Shown: one piece after another, positions 17,201 to 55,700 of the stretch
Layout: every line of letters begins with the position of its first letter
Numbering within the stretch: position 1 is the stretch's first letter
NCBI RefSeq assembly: GCF_035083965.1
Contig: NC_089723.1
Coordinates: forward strand, 3,685,001 to 3,749,000
Source: Branchiostoma lanceolatum
Taxonomy: Eukaryota; Chordata; Leptocardii; Amphioxiformes; Branchiostomatidae
Direction: 5' to 3'
DNA: 64,000 bases
Notes under the pieces: model-generated
The model's database searches: none
Told to the model about the DNA's origin: nothing
Seen by the model: the letters and a program-made list of their open reading frames with translations, nothing else
Position numbers and translations under genes: made by a program

Positions 17201-20200
17201 GCACCTTGTTCAGATTCCCTCTACGGACAGTGACAATGGCGAAAACATCGGACCTGAGTGACAAAGAAGTCACGGAAGGGATGATGATGAGCCTCCTTCG
17301 CGGATTCAAAAGTGAAAGCTTTGAAGTCCTCCTGTTCCTCAACAGCGTGGAAAAGATCAAGATCTCCATCATAGAGAGTGACGGAACCTCACATGAATTC
17401 TACCATGCCGAAGCACTCATTTCTGAGAAGGCAAAGCAAGATCGGCGGAAGTTTGCAGACCACGTTGCTGACTGTGCTCACGGTGACGAGCCTCTTCACG
17501 TATTGCCAACTCACCATGTCACGTACGACATGGACCTCCACGACAACAACCAGCACAAAGAGACCTGGATAGTTCACCAGAGAATCGGGTTTGAAGACAA
17601 AGACATCCCCAACAGCATCAAGGAGGCCCATTCAGCAAACGAGTTGGGTCTACTTCCAAGAGGAGGAGCAGCTGTCTGCCACAAGAAATGCAAGCAGCCT
17701 CATAAACCAAAATCTCCTAATCAACCAAAGAGTTACGAAAAATGCTATCATATGGGACCCAAACGGGCGTTTTGCTTTCTGCCTCTTCCAATTGAAACAA
17801 AGCTCCCGGTCCATGTGAATGGCCATTTCGCCCTGGACCACGAGGCTAGGAGAAACCTGTGGAGGGATGAGAAAGGCGGGATGAAATCGGACTGGAACAA
17901 GACACTGATCAAAGAAGTCATCGCTCCGGCATACGCCGCGGTGTTAGATGCGAAACGAGCAGCAGACTTTGGTGTAGAACAGAAATCCTTCACAGCATCA
18001 AAGGCTCAAGATGTCAGGAGATCATTGGATAGGTATCACGATCTCTTCCCATCTATCCCAGCGACGACTGATGAGTGGAAAGGTCTTTCTGTGGCTTTCT
18101 ATCAGTATGTCGATCGCAAACATATGCACCTTCTGCCGCTGTTGTGGTCTACGACCGATGATCGCAAGCTTCACGATGATCAGCCAGGAAACCAAAGAAA
18201 CCAGCAGATGACACTAGAATGGCTACCACCAACGGGAGCTGGAAAAGAGGAGGCATTTTTCAACACATTGACGTACAAAGATGCTGGAAGCACAGAGAGC
18301 GATAAAAAGCCGAGAAGACTTGTACTGATGGAGAGCATCCTGAGCTTAGGGTTTAATCTGTTAGCCAGTCCAAAAGAAATTCTAAGCGCCTTTCAGGAAG
18401 CTGAAGTTGAAGTGAAAATAATAAAACCAGAAGCAGTGGTCGACTTTCTCCAGACGTACGCAGACGACGACCCGTTGTGCAATATTGGAGCGTCTCTTCC
18501 TGCCCCGCTGTACAGCACAACTTTCAAAGAACCAGAGAGTCTTCAAGTGGTCCTTCATTACTGTTTGTCTACCAGGAAAAGACAAGAAGAAAGCAAGGAG
18601 CACACGTCACATGGACATCAATCAGAGCCAAAACAGGAGCACGAGCACGCACTACACGGTCTCCCTTTGCTTCTGACAAGGGACAATATCCTACGTGCAT
18701 TTGACGTCTCATGTCCCGTCTTTGCTACAGAATACGCCAAGCTCGTTCCAAGAGTACCCGACCTGTTTGTCCACTGGTCGTGCGTTTCAGACTTACTACA
18801 CAAAAAGACTGACAGCTCAGTACGTTCCTTCAGCATCAAAGCTTTAAGTGGACTGATGCCACGAGTTCTCGACAAATCTGTGTACGGAAATGGGGAAAGT
18901 ATTAAACTGCACCAGTCTCCTACGACTCCATCACAGGATTGGATCTGTTGGATTTGGCAATTCTTTGATGACGAAGTACACCGGAATGCAGCAGGACAAG
19001 AAGCAGGCCAAGAAGCTGTAATCCAAGAGATCATGGGTCTGTTTTCCAGATGGGCTTTGTTGCCGGCATGCACTCACTCACAGACACAGAAGGTAGGACC
19101 CTTCGGTACATCATCTCACCGAGGAGTCCCTCCAGTTCAACCAGGTGAGCGTTACCTAGTCCCGCTGTGCAAAGCACACACTGTCGCGACGCTTGACCAA
19201 GGACCGGCATCTTCACAAAAGAACAGAGTGGCAGAAGTTCTCCGCAAACTCCACTGCCCGGAGCTCGACACAGACTGTCTTCGCGTACCTACATCCGTTA
19301 GTTCTTTCTCAGGCTTCCCATCAACCTCCACGGCCACGCCTTTGGCGTTGGCAAGACGTTTCGTCTCAAGTATCACAGACCATGTGGGAATCCTTAGAGT
19401 TTTGAACTTCATCTTAGTCGAAGAGGGGCGACTTACAACGTCTTTGGACCCCAAGGAGGCTACCTACCTGTTGCAGTATTTTGAAGAAGAGGTAGACAAA
19501 CTAAAAACTGAACCAGCGAATCTGCACATGTTGCGGTCCCTGCCCTTGTACAAAACAATTCACAACAAACTCATCAGTATTACAACCACACGTCAGTGCC
19601 ACGTGTTGCCGGTGGGAATACCAACAGCCGACATGGATGTTTGGATAAAACGGTCAAACGCTGTCTTTTTGGAGGAAAACTCTAAACTTCAAAAGCTACA
19701 CGAGGCCTTGGGATGCTCAGGAATCAAAGATGCTGATGTGTACCAACAGTACATCTTCCCAAACATGGACCATCTGAGTGATGAGGCAGTCATGGTGCAT
19801 CTTGTGTACCTAAGGCAGATGGTATGTGGGGCGTTTACGAAAGAGGAGAAGATACGACGTCAATCTTTGTTAGCAAGCCTACGAGATCTTCGCATCATCC
19901 CATCGAAAGGGGGCAGAAAGCCCATAGGAGAATTCTATGACCACGACCACTCCGTGTTCCGTGAAATGGTCTCAGACGAGAACTTCCTTCCCGAATGCTA
20001 TCGAAAGGAAATGGGGGATTGGAGACAGTTCTTCATCGACATTGGGCTTATACATGAAGTAACAAGGACCATGTTCCTCGAGTACGCAAGAGAGGTGGAA
20101 CGCCTGGCCAAAGTAACCAGAAGCAAAGAGAGTCGATTGACAGAGAAATCAAATGTTTTGGTAGAACATTTCTTCAGCATGGAGAAGTTGTTGGAGGGAA

Positions 20201-22944
20201 CTTTCATTCTACAATTGTCAAGTATTCGGTTCATTGTACCTGTAAAGGCACGACCTGCTCTGGTCGAGCTGCACAGTCAACATGGAGCTTCTGGTGACGC
20301 CCTGCCCTTTGTCTGCTTTAAGGACTCAGTGCCGGAGGACAAGCAAGAGCTTTGCTGGACCAAGGCTGGTATTTTACCTGACAGTGCAAATCCAGAGTCA
20401 ATGTACTATCGAGGAGATTCAAAGAAACTCTGCCAACGGCTAGGCATCCAGTTACAGCCATCGATTGATACCGTTACAAGCCATGTCACATGCCTTTGTC
20501 AACATTTGGCGCAGCAAAAGGCCACTGAGACAGTAGAGGGAGCAAACTCGCCCAAAGCCTGCGAAACTCTTTGGAACGTGATGCTGAAAGTCTACGCATT
20601 CCTTTTGAAGAAAGTATCTGATGACGACCTGCTGAAAGAAAGATTAGGAAACGTGCCATGCATAGTGGTGCAAAACGGTAGAAGGCTTGTTCGACCGGAA
20701 CAAATAGCGATCAAACTCGAGCAAAAACATGAGATTCGGCCACACCTCTATGGTATGCCCATAGAGCTTGGGCTATTCCACAAGCTTTTTGTGTCATTAG
20801 GAGCTCCAGAAAAACCAACACCAATGCAGTACGCAAAGATTCTGGATGCCTTGTTTTTCTCATCAAAAGGTGAACCATTGAACCCCAATGAGAAGAAAGC
20901 AACATACTGGGCCCTTTTTGGAATGTTTCGTCGCCTGAAACCTGCGTCAGTCATTCCGTTAGGGAAAGGACTGCCCTCAAAAACACGAGAAGTCGAAGAT
21001 TCATTTCATAAGTTGCAATGTCTATACCTCCCCAGCCGTAAGGGCAGATTGCTCAGATCTACTGACCTTGTATTCGACGATGCGCCACAGTTCACAAACA
21101 GGGTTAAGGAGGGCTTCAACTATGAAATGTTAGTTCGCCTGGACGATTGCCACTTGTCTGGTGATGAGCATGAACTGGTCAGTCGGCTTCCATCTCATCT
21201 CAGACCCAAGAACCTCAGTTCCCTCGTTCACGAGCAAGCCTGCGACGGATTGGAGCAAATGGCCTGCGTCATGGGCACCAATTGTGCACTGGAGTCTCGG
21301 CTGACCTCATTATTCTTGAGCACCCACTTTCGACGGGCCATAGTCCGTTTATCCAAACACAGCCTCGGAGAGAGATGTGACGAGGAGAAAGTCACAAAAG
21401 CAGCTGAAGAGTTTGCGTCGTCTGTTGAAGTCTGCTGCAAACGGCAACTGATCACTCGCCTTGTCTACAAGGAGTCACAGGAGCAAATCGAAGGGAGCGA
21501 TGGCAAGACACACTGTTTCATTGAAGACGATACCTTGTATGCGGCACACACAGACGCAGCATCTAGTGTATTCCTCTATAATCTAGCTCATGTGATTAAC
21601 GATGCGATGGGACATCCCCTAACAGACCTTGGCATTCTCATGATGGTTCTAAGTGTCGACGACCCATCAAATATTCCAGGAAGACTTGACCAGGTCGGCA
21701 TAAAACGTTACACTTCGGGTCAGCAAAATGACTCCGCCCTTCCCACCCTCGGCACACCCATTCCGGAAATCTATCACCACCTCCTAACAGGCAACCCGGC
21801 TCACTACTTCACGCCAGGCGACTATGTGGGTTTCGAGGTGTACGATCCCGACTTAGAGTCTGATGATGAAGAAGAGGAATACACCATGACATTCCTGTAC
21901 GCACAAGTCACCAAAGAAGTACCAACAGATACCGAACTCAACTTCGGTCTAGGCAGGAAATACGTCATAGATGTCGGACATATAAAAACAGTGAGTGCAG
22001 CAGATCTGTACAAGTTCTGCCGCCCCAATGTACCGGGTCCGCTTGTTCCGTATGAAGGAGAAACAGACAGGGAAGAGACCCCAGCAGTCAAACCATCTCA
22101 GAGTCTGGAAGAAGCGATGGAAGAGGTGAGCGACATCTTGGAGGAAGCGTGGAAGCTGCCAGAAAAAGAGAGAAAGAAGGTTGTGCGACGTCTCTATCTC
22201 CAATGGCACCCGGACAAGAATCCTGACAACGTCGAGATGGCCACTGAGGTGTGCAAACACCTTCAGGCTGAAATCTGCAGGCTTGAGAAGGGCCTTCCTA
22301 GAAAGTCCAGAGGAGAGGGAGGGTCTGCAAGCGGCGGCTTTGATTTCGACGGAAGCAGCTTCAGCAGCTCCTTCAGAAGATGGAACTCCCATGCTGGATT
22401 CCATCGCCGCCAAAGAAATCGGTTCCGCGAGCGCCACCGTGACGGCAACTTCAGCGAGTGGCGCACGGGCTCCGGCCAGTGGGTTCCACCAAGGACCGAT
22501 GAGAAGGACCCAAGCCCTCGGGAGGCGGCCCGCTGGCATCGCCAGGCAACAGCAGACCTACAGGCTGCCAGGGACAACCTCAGCGGCCCTGGGTCTTCCT
22601 TCGAGTGGACGTGTCTGATGTGCCACCAGGCGGCAGAGAAAGCCCTGAAATCCGTGCAGATGGGAAAGTTCGGCAAGTTCGAGATGAAGCATGAGATAGG
22701 AGGCATGGCGAAGGTACTGGAGGCCAGTTGCGGGGATGAACTGGCCGGTATCGGCAAAGCCGCGATGGAGCTGTCGTCTATCGGGTCCGGCTCCGGGTGT
22801 GATGACTTGTACCTGCGGGCCCGCTACCCCTACCTTCACCCGGCACCGAGGGTTCCCCACGACATGTTCAACCGTCAGCACGCCGAGCGCGCCATTCATC
22901 TGGCACAGACTATACTGGACATGACACGGAAAGTACTGAACTAA
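4916..22944 (+). CDS. SACS: Sacsin, giant HSP90-like/DnaJ/HEPN chaperone (six coding exons)
   Basis: Coding exons are 4916-4925, 6082-6170, 7854-8112, 8956-9778, 10404-11083 and 11363-22944. All phases close and give 4,480 residues (human sacsin is about 4,580). Three HSP90-like ATPase repeats are visible: residues 34-117 (ELIQNAEDA ... [12 protein letters not shown]), 1375-1457 ([11 protein letters not shown] ... [12 protein letters not shown]) and 2418-2500 ([11 protein letters not shown] ... [12 protein letters not shown]). A J domain with HPD at 4236-4238 follows (about 4205-4265), then a C-terminal HEPN domain (about 4338-4478). The human N-terminal ubiquitin-like domain is missing: the protein opens at the FGQxxPPLV segment and an in-frame stop precedes the ATG. 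Sacsins are cytosolic proteins tied to proteostasis, mitochondria and intermediate filaments. Repeat 1 departs from the usual NADDAGA (NAEDAEA). The acceptor at 11363 was chosen because it alone keeps phase and matches the human protein across the junction. Confidence 0.95.
5131..5425. repeat. (AC)n microsatellite
   Basis: About 295 bases of CA dinucleotides with scattered GC and AT variants, in a sacsin intron. The long open frames on both strands here are artefacts of the repeat. Confidence 0.95.
6380..7020. repeat. Tandem repeat of about 190 bp, more than three degenerate copies
   Basis: The phrase AAAATTTTGA...GACCC.(C/A)TGAAA(T/C)GC returns near 6390, 6582, 6768 and 6961, a period of 186-193 bases. 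Each unit also has a GGGCAAGTTT-like stretch, CATCTCTA and CAGCTTGA.TTTGG. It lies in the intron before sacsin exon 7854-8112 and ends just before MITE1. No coding potential. Confidence 0.8.
7113..7319. mobile_element. MITE1, complete 207-bp terminal-inverted-repeat element
   Basis: Perfect 21-base terminal inverted repeats (TAATGCTAGGGTCACATTTC then C) flank an AT-rich core with GGAGCCCGACCGGGCAG and GCAAACAGCCCGGCCGGGC near the ends. No ORF, so it is non-autonomous. A partial relative lies at 25820-25880 against the splice donor of AMT gene A exon 8. Confidence 0.85.
8375..8450. mobile_element. piggyBac-like MITE end (fragment)
   Basis: Contains GTAACCAATAGG, GGGTGCCAAATGGCTA and TTTAGCGTGCTAAATGTTAA. 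The same string of motifs occurs at 50520-50600 and, inverted, at 34085-34150. A TTAA at the outer edge suits the piggyBac superfamily, which targets TTAA. The rest of this intron (8113-8955) shows nothing recognisable. Confidence 0.45.
9853..10085. mobile_element. MITE2, copy A
   Basis: Terminal inverted repeats read CCCCTCTCAC...CGGCACGCTGGCGGCG on the left and the matching complement on the right (GTGCCGCGGGTACAGTGAG). The core CTTTGTGTGTTTTGTTGTC is shared with copies at 54331-54558 and 59813-60059. Non-coding; lies in the sacsin intron between exons 8956-9778 and 10404-11083. Confidence 0.85.
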
Positions 22945-23215
22945 TAAACCTACCAGAAAGTAGTCCAGATGTTACCTAAGATGAAATGTTCACCTGCCAG
23001 CACGCCGAAAGAGCCATTCATCTGGCTCAGACCATATTGGACATGACACGGAAAGTACTGAACTAATAAACTTACCAGAAAGTATAGTCCAGATGTTCTA
23101 CTTAAGCAGAAATGTTCACCTACCAGCACGTAGAAAGAGCCATTCATCTGACTCTTTGACTATACTGGACATGACACAGAAAGTACTGAACTAACAAACC
23201 TAGAAACACAGAAAG
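22862..23215 (+). repeat. Sacsin stop-codon end repeated in tandem (three copies)
   Basis: The last coding stretch (from ATGTTCAACCGTCAGCACGC through the stop and the following ACCAGAAAGTAGTCCAGATG) occurs again starting near 22988 and near 23110, a period of about 120 bases. The second copy keeps an uninterrupted frame of 26 codons ending in the same VLN-stop. The third is frameshifted. The first stop overlaps an AATAAA at 22943-22948. Confidence 0.9.
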
Positions 23216-24806
23216 TAGTCTAGATTTACCGCTTGAGTAACAGACCACAGAAATAGCAGAAATGTTGGTTTTGTACGTTTAAGAGTTCAGAACATTTATG
23301 AGAGACATGTAAGCGTCAGAAAGAACACGATGATTGAATCAAAATGACTAGTGGTCTTGTAGTTGTAGTGGTCCTGAGTTGATGGAGCAATTTAAAGCAG
23401 CACCAGCAAAGCTATTCAAATCGTATTTTGGTAGTCATAGAATTTAGCTTTAGATGACGTGTTCAGTTTATGTTTTGTTGTTAGATTCAAAATACATTTT
23501 GAAGTATGTAATCAGTAAATCAGCAATCTTAGGTCTTTTGACGTTTATCATATTTTTTACGAGTAGATGCATTTGATGATGGGCGAGACAAGATTGACTA
23601 GAAAACAAAGCTGTACATTTACACAGGAAGTTTTATTACTATGGTATCCGGTAGCTTAATAAATGGACCAGCTGTGTGCCTTAAACATAGAGCAGTATGA
23701 ACACACTATGGAGAAAATTAGATCACAATGGATCAGTTTATTTTAGTGTATTCTATATGTTTTGCGTTAAGTTTCCAATCAATTATAGACACCAGCCTGC
23801 TTTCTATTAGCTAATGTTGTTACAGACCATATGATATATGCACGCAATTGCAAGTAGGGCATAAGGCCAATTAAGGACAGGATACATTGCTTTGATCAAC
23901 ACGATACATTGTCCCTAGTTTTGGTTTATATTCTAAAAAGGCTTGAGCAGAACTTAACCAGATATTATGTACTTGAACTATTGTAAGGACTGACCAAGAA
24001 GGCTTGTTTTGCGAACCTATTTAGAAAAAGCTTTTCACTTGTCTAGTGGTTGATACATTTTTTATGCAAAAAATTATAACTTAGTTCATTAACAAAGATA
24101 AGGATGGTCATCTACTAAGGGTTTGACAGCATTCACCCCCCGTACAATCTTTCATGGTCATCCCTGATTAGTCGTAGACAATTTGAATGATAAGCATTTG
24201 AAGTAATAATAACAACTACATTCCATTTTTCTTCAAAACGATCACGAAGTATGGACAGGGGGTGTGATGAGTTAAAAAAACCAAAACAACGTCAACAACG
24301 ACAATTATGAAGTTGCAAATTCGGAGAGGGTTTTGATGAATGATTTAGGCAAAACTACCCTATCCGTCCCCTCTTCGTGGTTTATGGTTTGGTGTTAAGA
24401 CATTGCTTTGCTTTGCTTTGTTAAAGTTTGTGAAAAGTTGGAATAAATTCTGTTAAATTGGACCTGTTGTTTCATGTCTTACTTATTACCCACTTTGTCG
24501 TAAGTCCCAAACATATAATGATGGTGTAAAATGGCATAAGCTGCCATAACATACATATCAAAAGCTACATGTATATCCAAGAGCAAAGACCGCAACCCAA
24601 AATATCTGTAACGCTTTATTTCTGTATAATTCTGAGATTGCACATTGAGTTAAGTTGTCTTTCATACACACATTATCATTAATATTTATATACATATGCA
24701 TACACATATCTTTCCTTTATGTATCCTGAAATAACGCGCAAATATCTTTAACTGGTAAACATGTCTAATTTGTAACCAAGACCTTCAGATTTTAGCTAGG
24801 TTGACA
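23216..24806. other. Sacsin 3' flank, no other gene seen
   Basis: AT-rich sequence without a coding frame of note. It is probably the sacsin 3' UTR and the gap to the convergent AMT gene A. Confidence 0.5.
24442..24447 (+). terminator. Candidate poly(A) signal for sacsin
   Basis: AATAAA followed by a T/GT-rich stretch (CCTGTTGTTTCATGTC). An earlier AATAAA lies at 23658-23663. Which one is used cannot be told from sequence. Confidence 0.4.
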
Positions 24807-25343: not shown

Positions 25344-28300
25344 TCAATGCACCTCTGCCGGAACCTTCAAACGGTTTCCTTCAGCGTCCTCATCGAACGC
25401 GTCGTTGCCGTGCCCGTGACGTCCTTCCGGGTGGTGTGACGTCACCTCTATTTCCGGCAGCTCCCTAGTCTCCCTAGTGACGTCATCGGCAGCCCAGCGA
25501 GCCCTTCTGATCACTAGAGTCTTTCCGTCGTCCGAGATGTTGGCGGTGGACGGCCTCCGACCGTGAAGACCCACCGACTTGCCGTACGCCGACCGCGGGA
25601 CCTTGTTCCTCAAGGCCAAGGAGATGTCCATGATCTTCAAGACGTCCCTCTTAGACAGGACGGGACCTGACGGCACCTTGAAATGTGGACATGAAACGGA
25701 ATTGAGCTGACTCTCTGGTTTAGTTAAGTGTTCAGTCAATCTTCTGACAAGAAAGACAAACGCTACAGATTCTGACGCTTTTCGACAGGCGCAATGGACC
25801 ACGGTCTAACGTCTCGGTTTTTGTGTAAATTTATCGATATAATATCGTTCCCGCAAACAGCCTGGCCGGGCCCCGGTTACCTGGAAGGTCCTTCCGTCCT
25901 GCGTGCGGATGACGCCTTCGGCGGTGTCGTACGTGCCGTTGATGCTATGCTCGCACACGTCCGCTCCGATGATCTCCGCCACCGTGCTGATCCGCAGCCC
26001 AATCGTCAGGTCAATGACCTTGAACGTGAGGAATGACGTCAGCACGGCCCAGGCGATGATGGCGACGCAGGCTAGAGTCTGCACGCCAAGGATGTACCAG
26101 CCGCCACCGTAGATCAGACCTGAATATAAAAATTTACAACACATCATTCTCTCCAGTTAATTGAATTACCTAGAGAAACACACACAGAGAGTCTGGATAC
26201 ACAAATTTTTATGTATCGCCCATACTATAGGTCTGGACGCCAAGGATGTACCAGCCGCCACCGTAGATCAGACCTGAACATAGACATTCACAACACATCA
26301 TTCGCTGTAGTTCCATTACCCAGAGAAACACACACAGAGAGTCCTATCCCAAATTTCTTCTCTCTCCCTCTCTCTCAGTCTCTCTCTAATCTCCCTCTCT
26401 CCCTCCCTCGCTTTGTCTCACTCTAAACACCCCTCTCTATATCTCTACCTGCGTGATTCGTAAGTCCCGCCACCCTGTCGGGCCCCAGGAACAGGCCCAT
26501 CGCCAGCATGCCCCAGACGCCGCCCACCACGTGCACGGCCGCCTATCCCAAATATCTCCTCTCTTTCTCTCTATATGTCTTAATATCTCTCTCTCTCTCT
26601 CCCTCCCTCTCCCTCTCTTTCTCTAAATACCCCATTCTATATCTTTACCTGCGTGATTCGTAAGTCCCGCCACCATGTCGGTCCGCAGGAAAATCCCGAC
26701 GGCCAGTATGCCCCAGACGCCGCCCACCACGTGCACGGCCGCCCATCCCAAATGTCTTCTCCCTCTATCTCTCTAATTTTTTTCTCTCCCTCCATCTCTC
26801 TCCATCTCTCTCTCCCCCTCTCTTTCAAGATAAGCCCCTATTATATCTCTCAGAATTACCTGCGTGATTCGTAAGTCCCGCCACCCTATCGGGTCGCAGG
26901 AAGATCCCGACGGCGAGCATGCCCCAGACGCCGCCCACCACATGCACGGTCACCACCCCCACGGGGTCGTCTATCCGCAGCCTCCGGATAAGCTCCCCGC
27001 CAAGGATGGCCAGGTAGCCGCCCACAGCCCCGATCAGAAGGCTCTCCCACGGCCGCGCCAGGCTACAGAGGGCTCAACACACAGGCAGAGACGCGAATAT
27101 TTTTCTTAGGCTAAAGACATGCTCAAAACGACAAATATGCTCACAACGACAAACAACGAAACGAAAATCCGAAGGCCACGCCAGGACCTAAACACGTTGG
27201 AAGAGACGTAACGAATAATCAAAAGACTAAGCATCAAAACGACAAAAAAGCTTGTAGACATATCAACCAGTAGATGTCCAATCGAAGAAAGAAAACAAGT
27301 GATAGGGCCAGGCCAGGATACAAAGAGTACAACACAAAAGCATAGACGAGAAGAAAATTGAATGCTTGAAACGAAAAATATGCTCAAAATGACAAACAAC
27401 GAAAAGAAATTCTCAAGAACATGCCAGGAAAGGAACACAAAGGCAGAGACGTGAAGAAATTGTTTAAACTCATCATCATTGTTTAGACTAGAATATGCTC
27501 AAAACAACAAACAAGCTTGCAGACATGCAAATCGGTAAGAGCCCAATCAAAGAGAAATGTCCCAGGGCCAGGCATCCAAAACCTGGTGACACGGACAGAG
27601 ACGTGAACAAAGGATTTATAGACCAAGTGGCGAAAACTGCATGTAAAGCCCCTGTCACGCTTGTGCGTATATACAAGCCCACGCGAGTTGCGTATTAACA
27701 TCGTTGCGTTCTTCGTTTAGGTTAAGTTTGCAGCAGAAGAAGTAATTTCTTTGATTTGATAACTAGACTGCTCAACGGTGGGTCAAAGTAGAAAACAACT
27801 TCCTCCCGCAAAAGCTACTTAAACAAAACAAAAATGTTACTGCGGAACTCATGCGCATTTGAATATACGCACACGTATGACAGGGCCCTAAGGTAAACAT
27901 GGAAGATGCTTTCCAGTTTAGTTCCAGCGGGAGGTCGACCAATGTAAGTGAATACCTCATTTGCCCTAATTGGCCAATTTGAACTATTTCCCGACCCCCT
28001 AACATGGTCCGGTGTTGTGTGCTTACCTGATATGGATACCAGGGACCCCAAAATGCCGTCCAGGGTGTAACGGACTTCTATCTTACCGTTCCGCATCAGC
28101 CAACTGAGCAGAACAACAACACTTGTATTAGGAGTTTGTTTGTTTATCAGACAAAAACAGTACTCGCTAATCTTTTTGGAGTCATCTTCAAGTATGGTAT
28201 TACATATACAATAGAAAATTAAGATTCTACATCAAATGATAACAATTCGTCGCACATGTTCCACTATATTACACAGTAAATACTTGAATGAACTTTATAA

Positions 28301-29412
28301 CTCTGTAGATACGGAAGCACTATAGAAACACAACATAAACCATTAAAAATAAACAAAAGTGATAGCGTTGATCCCAATAAAATCCAAGCAACGAGCTAAG
28401 ACTAAAATAGAAATAAAAGCAATTGTCATACCTGTCCATATGTTACATGTAGTTGGTTCAAAACGTAGCAACTTAGCTACAAATACATAGATAAATAGAT
28501 GATTTTTTTCAATGCCAAACGTTTTCTTATATCTATTAATTAATCAATTACGGTAATCGAAACGCAGCTCTGCGAGTCGCCGTGTTCCTTGGTGTATTCG
28601 CCCGCGATTTCGTGATGTCTAACATGGAATCTACGCCTTAATTAATGGGTAAGATATTCAGTAAGGGGGGCGGAGCTAGAATAGGGAAGACACCAGATTG
28701 GTTTCACGTCCCCACCTGTACACGATCCCGACCGTTCCACCTCCCATAGACGCTAGCAGAGTGGCAGCAGCAGCCCTGGAGCGGCATGGGAGAAAATTGA
28801 TAAGCCTGTATTCGTGACTAGCATCATCCCTGGTCATGCTGGCATCTACCACAATGAAGTGGCTGACAGTTTGGCAGGAAATGCCTTGACATTTGGTAAC
28901 AACAACTTGACCGGGCCGACGTTGTCAATACCATGAGACAAACTGTTTGTCTAGGCACAAAGATGTTCCGTCTACTTGGTCGATGGCAGGGCTGCTAGGA
29001 AAGGGGATGAAGGAAGAAGAGAACACTTTCAGGGACAGAGCAGAAGAATAGCAACACACCTAACGGACTGAAAACGTTGTTGGACATGTTTGAGGGAGGA
29101 GGACCTAGGTGGTTACCGGAGTCATTACTCCTTTAACGTTTTAAGAAGAAAAGGAAGACCTGTAGAGTTCAGGGTGTACAAGGCCACTTTAAATCACTTT
29201 ACTAAATCATATCCTAAGTTTGCGCTTACCGAGATGAGAGTTTCCATTTCCCTCCTGTTATCCCGTACGTACTTCCACAGTTAAACCCAAGCCATCCCCA
29301 CCTGCAAAGAATACAACAGGAACGGGCTGTACTCGTCAACAGTAGCATACTTTTTTTAGCAATAGACCGATTCCATGACGTCACCAGATCGGTCAAAACG
29401 TAGAAAGTTCTT

Positions 29413-29471
<59 letters not shown>

Positions 29472-32400
29472 CTCCTCTCTCTTTCTCCTCCTCTCTCTCC
29501 TTCTTTCTATTTCTCCCTCCCTCCCTCCCTCCCTCCCTCCCTCCCTCCCTCCCTCCCTCCCTCCCTCCCTCCCTCCCTCCCTCCCTCCCTCCCTCCCTCC
29601 CTCCCTCCCTCCCTCCCTCCCTCCCTCCCTCCCTCCCTCCCTCCCTCCCTCCCTCCCTCCCTCCCTCCCTCCCTCCCTCCCTCCCTCCCTCCCTCCCTCC
29701 CTCCCTCCCTCCCTCTTTTACCGTCAATCGATTCAATACAACCGTCTAAACATCTGGACTGCATCTTTCTTTACAGAATTTAGGAATCAGAAATTTCAAT
29801 TTAAAGCCAGTGGGAGTGGCTAGGAAAATTCCCTATTTGTATCTTACCCGTAAATAATTTATCTTATATTCGTATATAACTCGTCTTCCACTGCCTCTAA
29901 AAAAGAAGTCAAACCCAGCTTGTCTAGATATTGCCAACAGTCGTATTTAGTAGTCTATTCTTACAACAATATTAATGTCAGTAACAGTACACTGTCACAT
30001 GTATGTTTTCCCTATATTTCTATAATGTATTTGCAATTAGCCCACGGGCATGAACTTACAATAAAACTTCCTTATAATGCCTTGTGTTATGCCTTGATGT
30101 ATTTGAATACTCTTGATCTTTTAGCCCTTTTCTTAAACACAAAGAAAGAAAAAATAGCACCCGCTCAAGGTGCTAAATGGAACAGTCCTCACCACAACAT
30201 GAACATGCCCAGCAGCGCGTTGGTAGGATAGCCCATCTTCGGTTCCTTGGTTCCGGGTTTGAAGACGCCGATTCGAGGCCCCATGAGTAAGGTAGCCACC
30301 AGGCCATTCGTCCCGCCCAGGATGTGGACTACCGCCGATCCTGCGATGTCCAGAGCGCCCAGCTGAACACAGAAGTTACAGGTATGTCAGAACGTATTGC
30401 TGGAACCTTGTCATTGACCTTCCGCCATCTTGAATCTAGAGGTCAGATTACATTATTGGTAGCGTAGTGGAACCTGACCTACCAGGAGTGCCTTTATCGT
30501 TGGGTTGGGCCATAGGGCATACACCCGGTATGTACAAAGAAGATAAACGGATAAATAGGCTACATGTTACAACTTACTTGCTTCCAGAAAGTTGCGATTT
30601 AAGGTAGAATGTTCAAAGGTCAGCAAAAATTGCTTATCCTACATTGTTGTCAATTAGAACATTCACTTGTAGTGTGCCCTTCTGAACTGGATACAACCAC
30701 GAAGGCTTCTTTCATCCCACACATGATGTGGTGAGACCAGTAGGTAAATAGTTGATAAACTAGGTGGTAAATATCCTATCTAGGAGACATTTTGTCCCAA
30801 TGAAAGCTGAAACATTAGTGTCGTTGATCCTGTCCTTTGTGCTGAAACGCGGTCACATGCCAGTAAACCCACAGTCAGCCGGGATACTATCATTTCTCGT
30901 GTAGCTTCTCTTTTATTGGTTCGAAAATTGGACAGGTGATGTCTAAGGTGTTACATTCAAAGAATAGGATAGCCTCTATGTACAGTATATATAACAGGTG
31001 CATGTTCAACGAACTTGGAAATTTTCCTAGTGTTTTTCGACAAATACAGCTAAAGTCCTAACGACTGCAGTCATTCCAAAGGTGTACAAGAAGGATGACT
31101 ATAACGAGGCCTGTTGTCGAACCAGCAACCTTCCCATCCGGAAACAGAGGCGCGCTAGCAACTGCTGACTACCACGTACACAAACATACATTCTTGGCAA
31201 AGGTAATAACAGAGACACACGGTTCACTTAGCCTCCCTTGCAGGCCTTCTGGGCGGCACTGGCGTTTATTTTTGGAGGAGCGCTGATTCGTGATTCTAAA
31301 GATATCGGGGCCAGGCTCTTTCGCTGTACGGGTTGCATTTCGATTTGCTGTACCGGCGGAAAAAGAACCTGGCCATGGTATGTTGAAAACAGCGAATCAG
31401 CCCCCCCCCCACCCAAAGAGAAAAACGCTGGCGCCGCCCTAAAGGTCTGCAAAGGAGACTAAATGAAGCATTACCTTCACCGAAGGTAATGTTTTCGGTA
31501 GTGTTTGGATGTATGTTACTTCCAAAAGGCTTTGGTTTGCCCAAAAGGCCTGAAAAGGAGGCTAATTTACCTTGTTTTGTGTAGTGTTTGGATGTGTTTG
31601 TTGTTTGCCCAAAAGGCCTACAAATGAGGCTATATGCTTCACTCACCTGTTTCAGCCAGCCTCCTTTATACCAGAGCCACCTGGACGGCAGTGCGTAGAT
31701 GATGGCGCTCATCAAAGAGAAGACGACGTACGCCTCCAGCGTCGCTCTCTCCGCCATCGCGCCGCTCACGATCGTCGCAGACGTCGTCGCAAACGCCAGC
31801 TGGAAGAAAAAGCTCGAGAAGAGGAAGCCCATGTCTTTCTCGGAGGCGTCTAAGAAGTAGTACCCTACCCCGACGATAGAGTTGGAGCCAGGTTGGCTGC
31901 CGAACCCCATACCATACCCAACGATCCAGTATGTCAGCCCCCCGAAAAGGACGTCGACCGCGTTCTTGAAGATAATGTTGACATCGTTCTTCATAGAAAC
32001 CTGACAAACACACAACATGAGAAAATACTGTAAATGTATTTTTCAGTATTTATGTCCCAATTTATATAATTCCGGGCAGAACAGTTACGACAGTTAGGCA
32101 TAGATACAGATACAGTTATAGATACAGGCATGGACATAGGTATAGACACAGACCGAGGTACAGGTACAGACACAGATACAGTCATAGATACAGGCATAGG
32201 CACAGGTACATGCACATGCACAGGCTCAGGTACAGATAGAGTTGTAGATACAGGCATGGACAGAGGTACATGCACATGCACAGGCTCAGGTACAGATAGA
32301 GTTGTAGATACAGACATAGGCACAGGTACATGCACATGCACAGGCTCAGGTACAGATAGAGTTGTAGATACAGGCATAGGCACAGGTACATGCACATGCA

Positions 32401-33046
32401 CAGGCTCAGGTACAGATAGAGTTGTAGATACAGGCATAGGCACAGGTACATGCACATGCACAGGCTCAGGTACAGATAGAGTTGTAGATACAGACATAGG
32501 CACAGGTACATGCACATGCACAGGCTCAGGTACAGATAGAGTTGTAGGTACAGGCATAGGCACAGGTACATGCACATGCACAGGCCAAGGTACAGATAGA
32601 GTTGTAGATACAGGCATAGACAGAGGTATAGACAAAGACACAAGCGCAGGCACAATTATACATATAGAAACAGGCACTCTCTGTGCCTGTATCCAGAACT
32701 GTATCTGTACCTGTGACACAGGTACAAATACAGTTCTGGATATAGTCACAAAGGTATAGACACAGGTACAGGTACAGATACAGGCATTCTAAGACACAGC
32801 TAGAGACACAGGTAAAGCTATAGATACAGTAACAGATAAAGATACAGATACCTGTCCGGACTCCAGAAGGCTGAATCCTGACTGCATGGTAAATATGAAG
32901 ATAGCGCTGGTTAGGATCCAGGTAGCGTCATCGCTGTCGATGTGCACGAAACCGTCGCTCTTCTCGGCCGCTGGTGGCACTGACGTCCCCAGAACAGGCG
33001 ATGTAGACTCGCTGGCGTTGCCCGAGGTCGTTACGTTGGCAGACAT
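25344..33046 (-). CDS. AMT-family ammonium transporter A (nine coding exons)
   Basis: Coding exons in transcript order: 33046-32852, 32000-31647, 30362-30193, 29301-29230, 28775-28716, 28103-28027, 27072-26860, 26119-25881, 25676-25344. Phases close to 570 residues. Family signatures are DDATWILTS, the first membrane helices with [29 protein letters not shown] and [10 protein letters not shown]. The twin histidines of the ammonium pore are present at residue 196 (VVHILGG) and 353 (VHVVGGVWG). Two N-glycosylation sequons lie in the N-terminal tail (residues 4 and 10). The product would be a multi-pass membrane channel for ammonium. The cytoplasmic C-terminal exon (about 110 residues, hydrophilic, His-rich near the end) has no counterpart in gene C. 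It lacks two introns found in gene C and has one C-terminal intron that gene C lacks. AMT rather than Rh is supported by the motifs listed. Confidence 0.93.
25820..25880 (-). mobile_element. MITE1 fragment at the splice donor of gene A exon 8
   Basis: GCAAACAGCCTGGCCGGGCC and the neighbouring TGTGTAAATTTAT match the right part of MITE1 (7113-7319). Homology stops at GGTTA, one base short of the exon edge at 25881, so the intron starts GTAACC inside MITE-related sequence. The intron is 204 bp; MITE1 is 207 bp. Confidence 0.6.
26231..26345 (-). repeat. Echo of the acceptor end of gene A exon 8
   Basis: Repeats the first about 43 bases of exon 8 (26081-26119 side), the acceptor at 26274 and about 70 bases of upstream intron, including AGAGAAACACACACAGAGAG. 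One extra copy, upstream of the real acceptor in transcript order. Confidence 0.85.
26449..26543 (-). repeat. Second echo of the donor end of gene A exon 7
   Basis: About 95 bases repeat the 3' end of exon 7 (GVWGMLA ... GLTNHAG) with its donor CGCAG|GTAGAG. The coding sense is still open, with changes such as AMGLFLGPD for AVGIFLRPD. The other side runs into CT-rich microsatellite, with no convincing acceptor. Confidence 0.9.
26649..26743 (-). repeat. First echo of the donor end of gene A exon 7
   Basis: Same arrangement as 26449-26543: exon 7 end with [12 protein letters not shown] and GLTNHAG, donor CGCAG|GTAAAG, then a CT-rich tract. Spacing between the three donor ends (26860, 26649, 26449) is about 200-210 bases. 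Confidence 0.9.
27051..27620 (-). repeat. Tandem array spanning the acceptor of gene A exon 7 (five units)
   Basis: A unit holding the exon edge (GGCC.GCCAGG), a GGCAGAGACG(C/T)GAA stretch and a GCTCAAAACGACAAA stretch recurs at about 27051, 27172, 27305, 27419 and 27564. Only the first carries the working acceptor (27073). At least two others keep an AG at the matching place. Confidence 0.75.
28800..28900 (+). mobile_element. LINE remnant, RNase H-like domain
   Basis: Frame from about 28815 reads [20 protein letters not shown], matching the HAG...NEVAD.LAG signature of RNase H domains in non-LTR retrotransposons. Stops follow downstream, so it is dead. It lies antisense in the gene A intron between exons 29301-29230 and 28775-28716. 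Confidence 0.7.
29418..29716. repeat. (CT)n then (CCCT)n microsatellites
   Basis: A CT run at 29418-29464, a mixed CT stretch, then about 200 bases of uninterrupted CCCT units (29512-29716). In the gene A intron after exon 30362-30193. Open frames here are repeat artefacts. Confidence 0.95.
31222..31640. mobile_element. MITE6 copy with repeated right end
   Basis: Long terminal inverted repeats of about 100 bases (GCAGGCCTTCTGGGCGGC left, GCGCCGCCCTAAAGGTCTGC right) match the copy at 59574-59812. The end motif GGCCT(G/A).AAA.GAGGCTA recurs near 31546 and 31614, just before the exon 2 donor at 31646. Confidence 0.75.
32110..32650. repeat. 60-bp minisatellite in gene A intron 1
   Basis: About seven copies of a 60-base unit (holding CAGGTACATGCACATGCACA and GTACAGATAGAGTTGTAGA) in exact register between about 32190 and 32640, within wider GATACAGGTA hexamer-like sequence. 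Since 60 is divisible by three, several frames on both strands stay open. I do not treat these as genes. Confidence 0.95.
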
Positions 33047-33114: not shown

Positions 33115-33441
33115 TTCTTTCCATATCTTACATCTGCAGCGTGACTGCTTCCACCAATGTTATAAGAGTAGTTGGAAGACCACGACGTTACATAAAAGTC
33201 CTAACAACAAGCGTCCCACCCACTGGTCTTACTGTTCACGTGATATTCACGTGCGCGAACGTAATCCAACAACGTCCATATCTTACATCTGCAGCGTGAC
33301 TGCTTCCACCAATGTTATAAGAGTAGGTGAAAGACCCCGACGTTACATAGAAATCCTAGCAACAAGCGCCCCACCCACTGGTTTTACTGTTCACGTGATA
33401 TTCACGTGATATTCACGTGCACGAACGTTGTCCAACATCGT
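33115..33441 (-). promoter_or_regulatory. Duplicated upstream region of AMT gene A with E-box arrays
   Basis: Two direct copies of about 157 bases (33121-33277, 33278-33441) lie 75 bases or more upstream of the gene A ATG. Each ends with CACGTG palindromes spaced 11 bases apart: 33237 and 33248 in the first copy, 33392, 33403 and 33414 in the second. They are likely promoter E-boxes for bHLH factors; no TATA box is seen. Confidence 0.55.
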
Positions 33442-33741: not shown

Positions 33742-36333
33742 GTACATGTCTGTGCTAACAGTGCTTTTAGCTACTTTTAGAGTGTACATGTGTTGCGAAG
33801 ACAGATACTGGTACAGCGTGTTCTATACTGCCAGATTGAAATGAAGTTTGGAGATCTGAATTGGAGGCTACTACACAAAACGGTATCATATACTAGTAGT
33901 ATGTCTGTGTGTCTATGTCATATATCTATATCATAACTTAATCTAGTTTACCTCACCAGAAGAAAGAAATTCTCCGGATGTACGATAATGATGATTATAC
34001 CATACATCATATCTGTATGTCTATTTATATATTTTTACTCCTGGTAGATTAGTCTTTATAAAGTCTTATAAAAGCTATTAAGGGTATCTTAACCCCTAGC
34101 ACCATGAAATAGCCGTTTGGCATCCAATTGCTTATTGGTTACAGAGTTAGGCAGCACAGAGAAGGTTAATGAAAATAATAAAGAGAATATAGTCTGTGTA
34201 ACTTAGATTGTCTTGCATGTTTTGGATAGTTCTGGCAAGTATCTTTAACTGAATACCTAAACTTTCTCTGAAGACGTTCGTAGCCGACACCGTGACAGTC
34301 TTAAGCTGGTCGTATATGTTTGGAAATTTGTGGACAACATAGTACATGCATAACATATTCTACTAATACGGATAAAGCTGCATTGATTACACAAATCCGA
34401 CATAATCCTTTTTTTGCAAAGACTTGAAAACTCGACATGAATAAGCCCTGCGTTTTCTGCACGGGTAATTATTGGACTGTTCTATTTTGAATATGTACGG
34501 GTGGTTTACATTGATTTTTTATTTAACCCATAGATTGTATCTAATACGCTTATATTTCAGTGACAAAACGTATCCCTTTCTAAAGTAAGAGTGGTACAGC
34601 CCAATTGATCCATTTGCAGTTCGACAACGCCTAAAGATTTAGCCGAGTTTCCGGTGTAATTAGGACTACTAATCGATAAAGAGATCGGTGATTATACCAT
34701 TGGTAATTAGCAGATAAGAGATAATCATCAACGCGATATCGCATAATGGAGGTTTACACTGTAGTTTCAGAGAATTATGATACACAGATACACGTCAATA
34801 AAATCTAGGTTTTAAAACCCTAGTCCTGCTGAGCCCAACAAGTGTCAGTTTGCACATGCTTGTTCTGTATGCTAGCCCTGACAATTGTTGGGTTGAGGGT
34901 ATTTCTAGAATGCCTATGTTGCACCCGCGCGGTTGTTGTAAAGCGAAGTAACTAAAAACGAGCAGCATCAAACTAGTACCCTTTGTTTGAAAGGTTTCTG
35001 GGCACTTCAGCAGTGGGGGTATATTTTTGCTCATGGAAATCCAGCAGGACAAGGGTTGATTGATACGTCTCTCACGATAACTATGCCTTTTGGAGAACTT
35101 CTAGAATTTGTCAAAGGCGTGTATTTTGTGAGAAGTGGTCAAATATTTGGTCCCTCAGTGGTTGCAATCTATAGTAGAAAGGGTCAAAGGGTGTTTTTCT
35201 GTAACTTTTGGGGAACTCAAAGACAACGTCTAGATACCGTCTTTTCATCGTAAATGTCGAGTTTATAGTCAGCATGCGTTTTCCTATAAATGTGGTTTCT
35301 TTTGCCGTTGCTTATTCACTCCAGATACTCAACGTTTTTCGTGTCTTTAAACACATTGTATTGGCTTTCTTAATGTACTCTTTTACTAGTTTCTTATTCC
35401 TCATTTCATAATTGAATTTAAAAGGAACCTCTTTAAAATACTACATTATAACTTTGCATATACATGTACAGTATTGCCTTATGTGTAGTTTAAAGAAGTA
35501 GGCATGTTTACCCGATGTATTCGATTTCAAAAACGCAAAGCCTATTTTCAAGTTCAATGGGTCATTTTCTTCGAAAGACCTGCCACGCCTGGGATTTAGA
35601 TTGCTGACTTTAACCGTTGATTTTCACTTGGAGAATTTGACTTCAAGAAACGGAAGGACAGCGGATTTCCTGTCAAAATAACATGGTAGCACACAGCTTC
35701 CAGCCACACCGGTCAGATTCCGCTAGCGCAGCGACGAATAAGAGTGGAGAAAGAGGCGTGTAGAAATTAAGAAAAAAAGCTTTTTGTGATTTGATTTATC
35801 CATATTTGAGTTCCAACATATGTCACTTCGTTTAAAGTTCATGGGGCCATTTTCTCGAAATACTTTTCAAGCCTAGACCTTACACTTAACTTGATGTTGT
35901 TTTTGGCTCAAAGAACTTTTAGATTAGTAAAAGGAACAGAGAAATGCCCAACTCCCAGTGGCCTTCCTTAGATGGTTTTGAAACATAACCAGACCTGTCA
36001 TGCTTCTTTTGGTCCTTGTGGGAAGCATCAACTTAGGCTTGATTTGTTTGGTGCTGCTTGGAGAACGGTGGGCCTCATTATATTTCTGCCCTTTGGTCAA
36101 TGTGTCAGCCAGTATTACTTTTATGTCTGCCAACAAAGTGTCTACACAAGAATGAAATTAAGAATTAGCTTTCCTCTGGCGTAGGAATGCGTAACCTTAA
36201 GACGTCAAACTGGAATGTTGCATTCTGAGTGTTCTCAGACTTAGAGCAGTTTGGCAATCTGAAGAATTCAAACCTTTCTCCCCCACTTTCGAGGTAGCTG
36301 GAAGTCAGTCTATTTCTTGAAACCTATAGCAGG
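33742..36333. other. Flank between AMT gene A and the collagen cluster
   Basis: No gene seen in 33742-34690 apart from an inverted piggyBac-like MITE end at 34085-34150. From about 34690 the sequence parallels 37305 onward (see the tandem duplication) and leads into the first collagen gene. Confidence 0.5.
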
Positions 36334-37206
36334 ATGGCAGGTCCAGCTACGCTAGCCGTTGTCGCAGTTTCGGCTGTACTGTTCACGTTCTCTGTCTGCC
36401 TTGCGGTAGAAGCAGAGGGTGAGGAGGGCTCGTGTCCGAAGCAGATGGCAAACAGCAACGTCAACAACATCACGGTGGTGGCTCCGCCCGGACCGAGGGG
36501 GGACACGGGGCCGCCGGGACCGAGGGGTGCTCGCGGGGAGAGGGGAGACACGGGCCTTCCCGGGAAGCTCGGACCGCAAGGCTTGGAGGGCCAGAAGGGC
36601 GAGAAAGGCGCTCCAGGGCAGAAAGGCAGCCAAGGCGCGGAAGGATTTGGCGGAGGAGCTGTTTATATCCGGTGGGGGCGGACGTCGTGCGACGAGGGTA
36701 CGGGCACGGTAACGGTGTACTCCGGGTTCGCCGGCGGAGCGCACTTTAGCAACAATGGAGGAGGAAGCAACTACCAGTGCCTCCCCGCAGACCCGGAGTG
36801 GGGCCGGTACGAAGATGGGGTTCAGGGATCGAAATCCTACATGCACGGTGCGGAGTACGAACTCAGCAGTAACGTACCGTACGAAAAGGCTATATTTCAC
36901 GACCGTGACGTGCCCTGCGCAGTTTGCTACAGTCTCTCCCGCCGCGCGCAGCTGATGATCCCCGCCCGCAAAACCTGCCCGGACGGCTGGACACGGGAGT
37001 ATGGAGGCTACCTGATGGCAGCGTACCATGACCATCCCGGCCGGACGGAGTTCGTGTGCATGGACGGGGAGCCCGAAGTCCTGCCAGGCGGGGAAGGAAA
37101 CGTGAACGGCGCGCTGTTCTACCCCGTGGAGGCCCGCTGCGGCTCGCTGCCGTGTCCGCCGTACGTGGAGGGGAGGGAGCTGACCTGCGTCGTGTGCACA
37201 AAATAG
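36334..37206 (+). CDS. Short-chain collagen C4-like secreted protein 1 (intronless)
   Basis: A single exon of 290 residues. A hydrophobic signal peptide covers about residues 1-25. A short linker follows, with Cys34 and an N-glycosylation sequon at Asn45. Eighteen Gly-X-Y triplets run from Gly53 to Gly104, starting [13 protein letters not shown]. The C-terminal domain of about 185 residues holds ten cysteines, including CAVC and CVVC pairs. The segment [10 protein letters not shown] ... TVYSGFAGG is typical of sponge and cnidarian short-chain collagen (spongin-like, C4) domains. The product is probably a secreted or matrix trimer. The coding sequence is strongly GC- and CpG-rich within AT-rich flanks. 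The ATG lies in GCAGGATGG, a context shared by its paralogues. The exact biological role is unknown. Confidence 0.88.
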
Positions 37207-43018: not shown

Positions 43019-43687
43019 TCAAAGATGGCGAACCTTCAGGCAATTATTGTAACGATGACAATTATTATTATACTGCGCGCGGCGGGAGAGACTGTAGCAA
43101 ACCGCGCAGGGCACGTCACGGTCGTGAAGAGTGTCCTTGTCGTACGGTACGTTTGTGCTGAGTTGATACTCCGCACCGTACATGAAAGAGCTGTATGCAT
43201 GAGCCCCATCCTCGTACCGGCCCAACTCCGGGTCTACGGGAAGGCACTGGTAGTTGCTTCCTCCTCCTTCGTGGGCCTAGTACGATCCGCCGGCGAACCC
43301 AGAGTACACCGTTACCGTGCCCGTACCCTCGTCGCACGACGTCCGCCCCCACCGGATGTACACAGCTCCTCCGCCAAATCCTTCTGCACCTTGGGTATCT
43401 TTCTTCCCCGGAGCTCCTTTTTCGCCCTTCTGACCCTCCAAGCCTTGCGGTCCGAGCTTCCCGGGAAGGCCCGTGTCTCCCCTCTCTCCGCGAACGCCCC
43501 TCGGTCCCGGCGGCCCCGTGCCCCCCCTCGGTCCGGGCGGAGCCACCACCGTGATGTTGTTGACGTTGCTGTTGGCCATCTGTTTCGGACACGAGTCATT
43601 CTCACTCTCCGTTTCGACCGCAAGGTATACAGGGAACAGAAACAGTGAAGAAAGTGCAACGAAGACCACCGTAGCGTGAGCATCCAT
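43019..43687 (-). pseudogene. Short-chain collagen C4-like pseudogene (copy 3)
   Basis: On the minus strand it starts at 43687, with a good signal peptide, an NNIT sequon, the Gly-X-Y block and the start of the C-terminal domain. At 43279-43277 a TAC codon of copy 2 has become TAG. Homology then continues in frame (QCLPVDPELGRYEDG ... [12 protein letters not shown]) to about 43076. There it breaks into AT-rich sequence that matches the downstream flank of the intact copies. About 80 codons and the normal stop are therefore deleted. A nonsense change plus a 3' deletion makes it a pseudogene. A short secreted product of about 136 residues could still be made. Confidence 0.85.
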
Positions 43688-52700: not shown

Positions 52701-55700
52701 GTATAAACATGTATCTCTATCTAACCTCTATCACCATTTACCCGCTAGCTCGCATACATGACTGTATATCCGCCACCATGAACAATTCACCCTCATCACC
52801 GCAATGAAAAGCGGCCTTGTGCCGATTTGAGCTTATCATGAATAAACAAAGGTTCAAACAAAACAAACAAAGAGATCTCAAATAGAATGTCTCATAACGC
52901 ACTCTTGAATATCTAAACTGTGCAGACCTGGGGGTCTTCCCTGGTTGTGGCATACATACAAATTTGCATGTAATCTGGTGGATAAATGTTGATGGAGGTT
53001 ACCTATTATACGATAAGACCAACAGCGACAGGGTTGAAATACTGTCGTTGGATGAAGCCTCAAAATAGTCCAGGTAAGGTGATGATGTCGTTTACGGCTT
53101 TGAGCATATACGGCCAGCCGGAAAACATACAGACAGGCAGACAGGCAGATAGGCAGACAGGCAGACAGACAGACAGACAGATAGGCAGACGGACAGACAG
53201 ACGGGCAGACGGACAGACAGACGGAGATATAGGCAGACAGACAGACAGACAGACATATAGACATGCAGACAGACAGACAGACAGACATACAGACAGGCAG
53301 ATAGGCAGGCAGACAGATAGGCAGTCAGACAGGCAGGCAGGCAGACAGACAGACAGACAGACAGACGGAGAGACAGCCAGACAAACAGACAGGTAGACAG
53401 ATATATAGACAGACACACAGGTAGACAGACAAAAACAGACTTAAAGACAAGTAAGCAAAAGAATGACTCCGCACCACAGCATGAACGTCCCGAGCAGCCA
53501 GCCAGCAAACAGGCAGACAGACAAACAGACAGACAGACACAGACAGACATACAGACAGACAAAAACAGACTTATTTTTAAAGACAGGTAAACAAAGGAAC
53601 GTCTCTCCCACCACAGCATGAACGTCCCGAGCAGCCAGCCAGCAAACAGACAGGTAGACAAACAGGCAGACAGACGGACAGACTGGTAGAAAGACGGACA
53701 GGTAAAAAGACAGACGGACTTTAAGACATGTAATTGATTGAATGACTCCACACCACAGCATGAAGGTCCCGAGCAGCACGTTGGTGGGCGAGGACATCTC
53801 GGGGGCGCCGCCGTTCTCGTCATCGAAGCGTCCGATCCGCGGCTTCAGCAGCAGGGTAGCCACCAGCCCGCAGGACGCCCCGCACAGGTGCACGGCGCCC
53901 GTCCCCGCGACGTCTATCACGCCCATCTGCGGACAGAGGAGAGAAACCTCGTCTGAGAAACACAGTTATGAAATTGTTTAAGCCTTCTTCTCACTGTACC
54001 CGCGGCACGCTTGCGTGCAAATACACATTTAGATGATGAAACAAGTAAGAGCTATCTACGGATTAAAATTACAACCATAGCATTTTAAGAACACGAGATA
54101 TAACAACAGTAAGATATAACAACAGTAAGCTCCACTGCAGTATCGCTGTGAGCCGCTAGGGGGCTAAAAAATCTAACAATTTCAAGGTCTCATAAAGACA
54201 CACTAAAAATCAAGACAATTCATTCCTAGAATTCTTGCAGACTGTACACAATATGTATAATCAGGCTCGCCCCTGAAGCGTCGCCAAAAATAAACACCAG
54301 CCGCATCTGGGGGGTTTGCGAAGGTGGCTAAAGCCCCCTCTCACTGGACCCGCAGCACGCTGGCGGCGTCGCTGCGTCCTAACCTGGATTTGTGTTAACC
54401 TTGACTTTATAATGGGAATATCATAATTCAAAACGTACAAGTATGACCCAAAAGACAACAAAACACACAAAGCTTAAAAAGATTCGTTTTTTGTCGATGA
54501 AGTTCGTTGAGTGCTTTGTCGACGCCAGTATGCCGCGGGTCCAGTGAGAGGGGGGCTTTACCGTGTAGAGGAAACCGTTGGGCGCCCAGATCCAGTGCGC
54601 GGGAAAGATGTAGACCACAGTGTTCAGCATGGAGAACACGATGTAGGAGTTGAGCTTCGTCCGCTCGGCCATTGCCCCCGACACGATGGTGGTACTGGTG
54701 GTGGCGAAGGACAGCTGGAAGATGAACTTGGCGAAAACCTGGGAATGAAGGAAGGAATGAATGGATGGATGGATGGATGGATGAATGAATGAATGAATGA
54801 ATGAATGATTGGAAGAAGGTGGTGGCGAAGGACAACTGGAAGATGAACTTGGTGAAAATCTAGGAATTAATGAATGAATGAATGGGTGAGTGAATGATTA
54901 AATGAATGATTGACTGAAGGAAGGTGTCGAAGGACAGCTAGAAAATGAACCTTCAAACATAGGAATGAACGAAGGAATGAACGAATGAATGAACGAATAG
55001 GTGGATGATTGAGTATATGATTGAAAGAATGATTGAATGAAAGAAGGTGCCGAAGGACAGCTGGCAAATGAACTTGGCGAAAACATAGGAATGAACAAAT
55101 AAGTGAATGGATGAATGGACGGATGGATGGATTAATAAATACATTGATGAATGGATGTCAGGATGGATGTCAGGATGGATAGATGAATTAATTAACTAAT
55201 AGGACAAAATGTATGGATAGATGGATGGATGGATGGATGGATAAATGGATGAATGAATAAATGAATAAATGGATGGAAGTGCAGACGGAAGGAAGGACGA
55301 AATGAAGAAAGGGATTCTATCAATGTCATGCATTTTCCAATGTTCACACAGGCACACAGACACGCACTCAATAACTTAACATTCTTAGTGAAGGTTGTAA
55401 AAAAACGTTAGCAGATACATACCACGCCCATGTTCTCGTCATCCGAGTCCAAGAACCAGTCGCCAACGCCGCAGAAGGCGTTCGTGCCCGCCGCCATCCC
55501 GAAGGTGATCCCGAAGCCGAACATCCAGTAGGTCAGCCCGCCGAACACCACGTCCACCGCGTTCTTTACCATGATGTTCACCTCGTTCTTGGACGACACG
55601 TTCCCGCACTCCAGCAGACCGAAACCTGCAGGGAAGCATAAGTTTTCGGATATCAAACTCGAGACACAAACGCACACACATGCACGCCGTTCCTGAGGTA

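Follow-up and report, generated by a model that had tools for sequence, protein, structure and literature searches.

A decayed minisatellite of the mirage kind at the acceptor edge of an ammonium-transporter exon in Branchiostoma lanceolatum

Mirages, minisatellites that lie across the exon-intron boundaries of amphioxus genes, were reportedly first described at the Adh locus, in Nucleic Acids Research in 2002. In the parts of the literature drawn on here, they are reported for Adh3 and for the globin genes BflGb6 and BflGb9, with units of 10-160 bases that are 81-100% alike in BflGb6 (PMC3087553), and PGBD5 duplications are placed alongside the globin, Adh and TnC mirages (PMC3902484). Moreover, the introns of amphioxus VCBP3 hold exons, whole or partial and in some cases with canonical splice sites, that closely match adjacent coding exons, according to a passage in which they are given as data not shown and are not called tandem arrays (PMC2632668). 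A literature search combining amphioxus with ammonium transporter gave four papers, none of them relevant as judged by title.

The window analysed here is a stretch of 64,000 nucleotides of B. lanceolatum (assembly GCF_035083965.1, contig NC_089723.1, positions 3,685,001 to 3,749,000), and all coordinates below refer to it. It contains an ammonium-transporter gene, gene A, and two further paralogues, genes B and C:

25344..33046, minus strand: gene A, ammonium transporter, nine coding exons joined at GT-AG junctions into a single open frame
26860..27072, minus strand: exon 7 of gene A, acceptor AG at 27074-27073 and donor GT from 26859
56917 to ~46743, minus strand: gene B, ammonium-transporter paralogue
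61675 on (61675-63534), plus strand: gene C, ammonium-transporter paralogue, first exons only

Gene A is intact, and its reading frame of 570 amino acids matches Pfam Ammonium_transp in a profile search (1.1e-109). The acceptor of exon 7 was placed at AG 27074-27073 because the reading frame demands it; an alternative AG at 27064-27063 was rejected as out of frame. The intron before exon 7 agrees in alignment column and phase with the corresponding intron of gene B. In the paralogue alignment, the introns A6-A7 and A7-A8 coincide in both respects with B8-B9 and B10-B11, and the introns flanking exon 7, being common to both genes, therefore predate the arrays described below.

Elsewhere, intron positions vary among the three genes. 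Seven introns are found in a single paralogue, as judged against gene C over its first three exons, which are those known; the intron B3-B4 is absent from both gene A and gene C, and the introns A8-A9 and B1-B2 fall where the paralogue proteins align poorly. Two further repeats lie inside these genes. The last coding exon of gene B carries an 18-base repeat (46980-47038) that encodes in-frame repeats of a six-residue stretch, and a 60-base minisatellite (32172-32628, 7.6 copies, 95% alike) takes up roughly half of the first intron of gene A.

On its acceptor side, exon 7 of gene A is bordered by a local array of diverged units that extends from 27051 to ~27640-27650, and the first of these units holds the real acceptor:

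27051..27215, minus strand: unit 1 and part of unit 2, with a copy at 27306-27458 (70% identity, 165 columns, E 1.9e-18)
27160..27300, minus strand: unit 2, AG kept, exon bases matched 15/18
27296..27405, minus strand: unit 3, AG lost, exon bases matched 16/20
27398..27559, minus strand: unit 4, AG lost, exon bases not demonstrable
27556..27650, minus strand: unit 5, marginal, AG kept at the aligned place

Unit 1 (U1) comprises 22 exon bases (27051-27072) together with the real acceptor. The positions that match the first exon base in U1 to U5 are ~27072, 27187, 27327, 27431 and 27582; for U2 to U5 they were placed manually on the alignment, with an uncertainty of 2 in U4. Going upstream, the successive spacings are about 115, 140, 104 and 151 bases. 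The four upstream recurrences announced by the original prediction are present, the outermost marginally, but not all of them at a spacing of 115-145 bases.

The relationships between the units were evaluated by a shuffle test. None of 500 shuffles reached the score of the pairs U1-U2, U1-U3, U1-U4, U2-U4, U3-U4 and U2-U5. The scores of U4-U5, U1-U5 and U3-U5 were reached by 8, 11 and 22 of 500 shuffles, respectively, which makes U5 marginal, and the similarity between U2 and U3 is not significant (58/500). U1 scores 63, 98 and 68 against U2, U3 and U4 and 27 against U5, compared with at most 30 against 78 other 130-mers from introns. Among the copies, exon content is demonstrable only in U2 and U3 in the same kind of test: for U4, 287 of 500 shuffles were as good, and for U5 the signal is weak (40/500). 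It had been proposed that the unit takes in exon bases, the acceptor and the preceding intron, and this applies to U1-U3.

The strongest similarity inside the array is the one given in the first line above. In addition, internal segments are common to U1 and U3 and, likewise, to U2 and U4. Taken together, these matches indicate a dimer of ~255 bases that is present twice plus a part, and not five equal units. The five-unit array expected at this edge therefore exists, with U2-U4 firmly related to U1, but its organization is dimeric and its outermost unit marginal. Identity between the copies is ~70%.

Stronger arrays than this one were found at four other exon edges, two of them in gene A and two in gene B:

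26343..26949, minus strand: exon 7 donor-side array of gene A, real copy and two more (TRF 200 x 3.0, 81% matches)
26077..26343, minus strand: exon 8 acceptor-side duplication of gene A, two copies 154 bases apart, AG kept
54697..55275, minus strand: exon 4 acceptor-side array of gene B, real copy and three more with exon bases, CATT repeats interleaved
53125..53777, minus strand: exon 5 donor-side array of gene B, real copy and two more, 24 exon bases, GT kept, short repeats interleaved

Exon 7 of gene A consequently lies between an acceptor-side and a donor-side array, as had been predicted from the sequence, and the recurrence of the pattern at further edges is borne out by the A8 acceptor, the B4 acceptor and the B5 donor. 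The A7 donor array is better preserved than the acceptor array of the same exon; its copies are spaced by about 199-211 bases, each retaining the GT next to 90 bases of exon. A duplication of the whole of exon 7 was considered and rejected, since similarity in the donor-side copies is confined to the final 90 bases of the exon. Four differences from the exon are common to both copies and all are synonymous. The 11 private differences comprise 4 synonymous and 7 non-synonymous ones, near the random expectation (0.27 synonymous). In the exon 8 acceptor copy, 42 of the 43 exon bases are identical. This array adjoins the A7 donor array at 26343, and matched copies of the two together make up 703 of 740 bases in gene A intron 7 (26120-26859).

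It could be argued that alleles or reads were misjoined during assembly and now appear as false tandem copies. Repeat-related misassembly was reported for the draft genome of B. floridae (PMC2632668), and is also reported for one mirage in that draft. However, the three arrays of gene A have 2-5 units that are 70-87% alike over the aligned lengths, and such copies seem too diverged to be alleles laid side by side. We regard an assembly artefact as extremely improbable.

The arrays share several properties with mirages as these are described in the published text. Their units hold the end of an intron with the start of an exon, or the end of an exon with the donor, and the tandem repeats span the boundary; this is clear at the A7 donor, the A8 acceptor, the B4 acceptor and the B5 donor, and at the A7 acceptor for U1-U3 only. 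Both 5' and 3' exon edges are affected (here three acceptor and two donor edges). With regard to unit length, the A7 acceptor (~104-151) and A8 (154) arrays lie within the range given above for mirages, but the A7 donor array (~199-211) exceeds it. Compared with the BflGb6 units, the A7 acceptor array is more diverged. The present case further differs from the mirages in the accounts at hand in that it concerns ammonium-transporter genes, that one exon has both edges affected at once, and that an intron consists almost entirely of two abutting arrays. We conclude that the array at the exon 7 acceptor is genuine, a minisatellite of the mirage kind that lies over an exon edge and has decayed. 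The view that no such pattern had been described does not stand, since boundary-spanning tandem repeats of amphioxus genes appear in the cited portions of two earlier papers (PMC3087553, PMC3902484).

The arrays at exon edges are accompanied by others in the window. One of them covers the stop codon of a gene with a HEPN domain, whose reading frame terminates in the first copy:

22861..23230, plus strand: 122-base array over the stop codon of the HEPN-domain gene (TRF 122 x 2.7)

Half of the shared differences in this array (4/8) are non-synonymous. It appears to represent the same kind of event at a coding edge, one that has no splice site as far as can be read from the DNA. The HEPN domain stands at the end of a single stop-to-stop frame of 3934 codons (11140-22944). 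Further arrays lie outside the genes, namely a 155-base unit in 1.9 copies, 94% alike, directly upstream of the start of gene A (33120-33408), and, in the interval from gene B to gene C, two copies of a 189-base unit that are ~90% alike (60393-60773); a 128-codon frame that overlaps the latter has no Pfam match. Four similar open frames occur on both strands (36298-37206, 38921-39793, 43019-43693 and 45324-46202), the third of which is broken by a stop codon; the first and the fourth, the two that were scanned, match Pfam Collagen. A search of the window against Rfam gave no match at gathering scores.

Exon boundaries had been proposed to be targeted as such, and we compared junctions with other positions in genes A, B and C (43 junctions), the introns of the HEPN-domain and collagen-like genes being left out. 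The local self-comparison retained 38 of 53 pairs, 15 having been dropped for low complexity. In a position test, a site was counted when a local copy on the same strand, at most 700 bases away, covered at least 8 bases on both sides of it. No excess at junctions was detected by this test: a local copy was present at 4 of 43 junctions and at 449 of 2115 random deep-intron positions (Fisher 0.059, the direction being fewer at junctions), and at 59 of 1083 intergenic positions. Arrays are thus no commoner at exon edges than within introns in this test, which runs counter to the original prediction. When cut-off and complexity filter were varied over nine settings, 2 to 5 of the 43 junctions and 84 to 747 of 3375 intron positions were positive. 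In six settings junctions were positive less often than introns, and in the three with the strictest complexity filter they were nominally more often positive (2/43 against 84, 126 and 142 of 3375); none of these differences was significant. Only two of the nine settings, both at E 0.1, counted the A7 acceptor itself as positive. As a function of the distance to the junction, intron bases with a local copy numbered 164 of 1500 at 10-60 bases, 83 of 1500 at 60-150, 113 of 1500 at 150-300 and 169 of 1500 at 300 or more.

A second test counted whole arrays, with one unit per array placed at random in the genes. Five of the eight gene-internal arrays cross a junction, against 2.40 expected (P 0.051), or 2.05 if placements over whole exons are barred (P 0.027). 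With eight small arrays added, the count became 5/16 against 2.82 or 2.52 expected (P 0.117 and 0.084), and without the A7 acceptor array it was 4/7 against 2.15 or 1.82 (P 0.124 and 0.074). The list of eight omits a weak 30-base pair (31535/31603), a distant pair (54112/55752), small TRF arrays and pure microsatellites, and it includes, on the assumption that gene C continues, one array (63791-63998) located past the final exon identified in that gene. In the list of 16, the pair at 31535 is included along with seven small arrays, while pure microsatellites and the distant pair remain excluded; neither list contains arrays outside genes. The excess in the array count is at most a hint, because the arrays were listed with the finding already known. 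The targeting of exon boundaries is therefore not supported beyond this weak, after-the-fact hint.

These counts bear on the idea that exon boundaries in this genome are duplicated preferentially by a process tied to splicing or transcription, for which breaks or R-loops at exon edges would be examples. The excess of five in eight in the array test and the duplication of both edges of exon 7 are what such a process would leave, whereas junction copies are no commoner than deep-intron ones, the excess loses significance when small arrays are included, and an array at a stop-codon edge and several intron-only arrays exist as well. In our judgement, this explanation is very unlikely. The same holds for its extension, according to which duplication biased to exon boundaries, perhaps via breaks arising in splicing or transcription, would fill and reshape introns from both edges, as in intron 7; this also seems to us a very unlikely account.

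The copied splice sites were then considered. As reported for mirages in the text available, many but not all copies keep their AG or GT. Twelve copied sites were scored, the outer degenerate copies (copy 4 of B4 and copy 3 of B5) being left unscored: the AG is kept in four of eight acceptors and lost in the other four, and the GT is kept in all four donors. If used, five of the eight kept sites would bring a stop codon and two would shift the frame; the second copy of the B5 donor is the one that would lengthen its exon in frame. Since splicing at the copies would in most cases do harm, they are expected to be silent.

A crude matrix was built from the window's own splice sites, the real sites being scored with themselves left out. 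With this matrix, U2 and U5 score 10.5 and 8.4 against 1.4 for the real A7 acceptor, the A8 copy 11.4 against 10.4, the A7 donor copies 8.8 and 7.3 against 9.1, and the B5 donor copies 4.2 and 4.3 against 3.5. The B4 acceptor copy is clearly weaker than the real site (8.0 against 14.0). However, the matrix is unspecific and does not single out the copies, because 151 AG sites in 14434 intron bases (~10 per kb) reach the first quartile of the real acceptors; a ranking of real and copied sites by this matrix was dropped for that reason. The kept GT and AG dinucleotides, the predicted stops and frameshifts, and matrix scores that for most copies are not below those of the real sites would all suit arrays that act as functional decoys, tuning transporter output by unproductive splicing. 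Against such a role stand the loss of the AG in half of the copied acceptors and the density of intron AG sites that attain this quartile, and we hold it to be very unlikely.

In 7 of 21 introns, at least 30% of the length is covered by merged array footprints, which were entered by hand with the CT/CTCC microsatellite (29416-29716) excluded from the test; this cover is somewhat overstated, because the footprints were merged over gaps (intron 7 reads 1.00). The arrays resemble intron gain by tandem duplication, as outlined in the relevant part of the source (PMC3443670), in that a local tandem duplication copies splice-like sequences. In that model, a new intron results from the duplication of an AGGT segment within an exon, whereas the introns here are older than the arrays. 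Could the copies nevertheless be steps towards a new intron or exon? Such a model has been published for mirages, in the portion of the paper cited (PMC3087553), and introns restricted to a single paralogue are array-rich in 4 of 7 cases, against 3 of 14 for shared introns. However, the two groups do not differ significantly (Fisher 0.16, rank test 0.20), and the introns flanking exon 7, common to gene B in column and phase, were not made by the arrays; an intron that was itself born of duplication is not what is found beside this exon. This possibility is highly improbable.

Very probably, the arrays result from random tandem duplication in repeat-rich introns, the products of which are kept at exon edges, so that they are minisatellites of the mirage type for which no boundary-seeking mechanism is needed. 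A tandem duplication, probably caused by replication slippage or unequal exchange, would by chance have taken in the end of intron 6 along with the opening bases of exon 7. The duplicated segment would then have been amplified as a dimer and left to decay within the intron. The spliceosome would keep using the copy that is joined to the intact exon, with splicing presumably normal in vivo, and the remaining copies would end up in the intron, or past the stop codon, and drift. Duplications that straddle an edge would survive because one copy stays on the intact exon and the protein can still be read. The array over the stop codon fits random duplication of this kind, because the only rule would be the survival of the original reading.

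Such passive duplication is supported by the array-rich introns, by junctions that are not over-represented, by the synonymous nature of the shared differences in the A7 donor array, by the greater age of the introns flanking exon 7 and by the published precedent. Several observations speak against it. The mild excess of junction-crossing arrays is not predicted by it. Copies at 10-60 bases from a junction are as frequent as those at more than 300 and commoner than those at 60-150 or 150-300. The stop-codon array does not have the pattern of a constrained original, and on the crude matrix most copied sites that retain AG or GT score no lower than their real counterparts.

With this locus, the phenomenon known from lancelets extends to the ammonium-transporter gene family and gains five junctions. 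Its main value is as a warning: arrays at exon edges are conspicuous, yet two or more of eight are expected to span a junction by chance, because many arrays lie in exon-dense genes. If a bias towards exon boundaries were true genome-wide, duplication linked to splicing would be directly testable.
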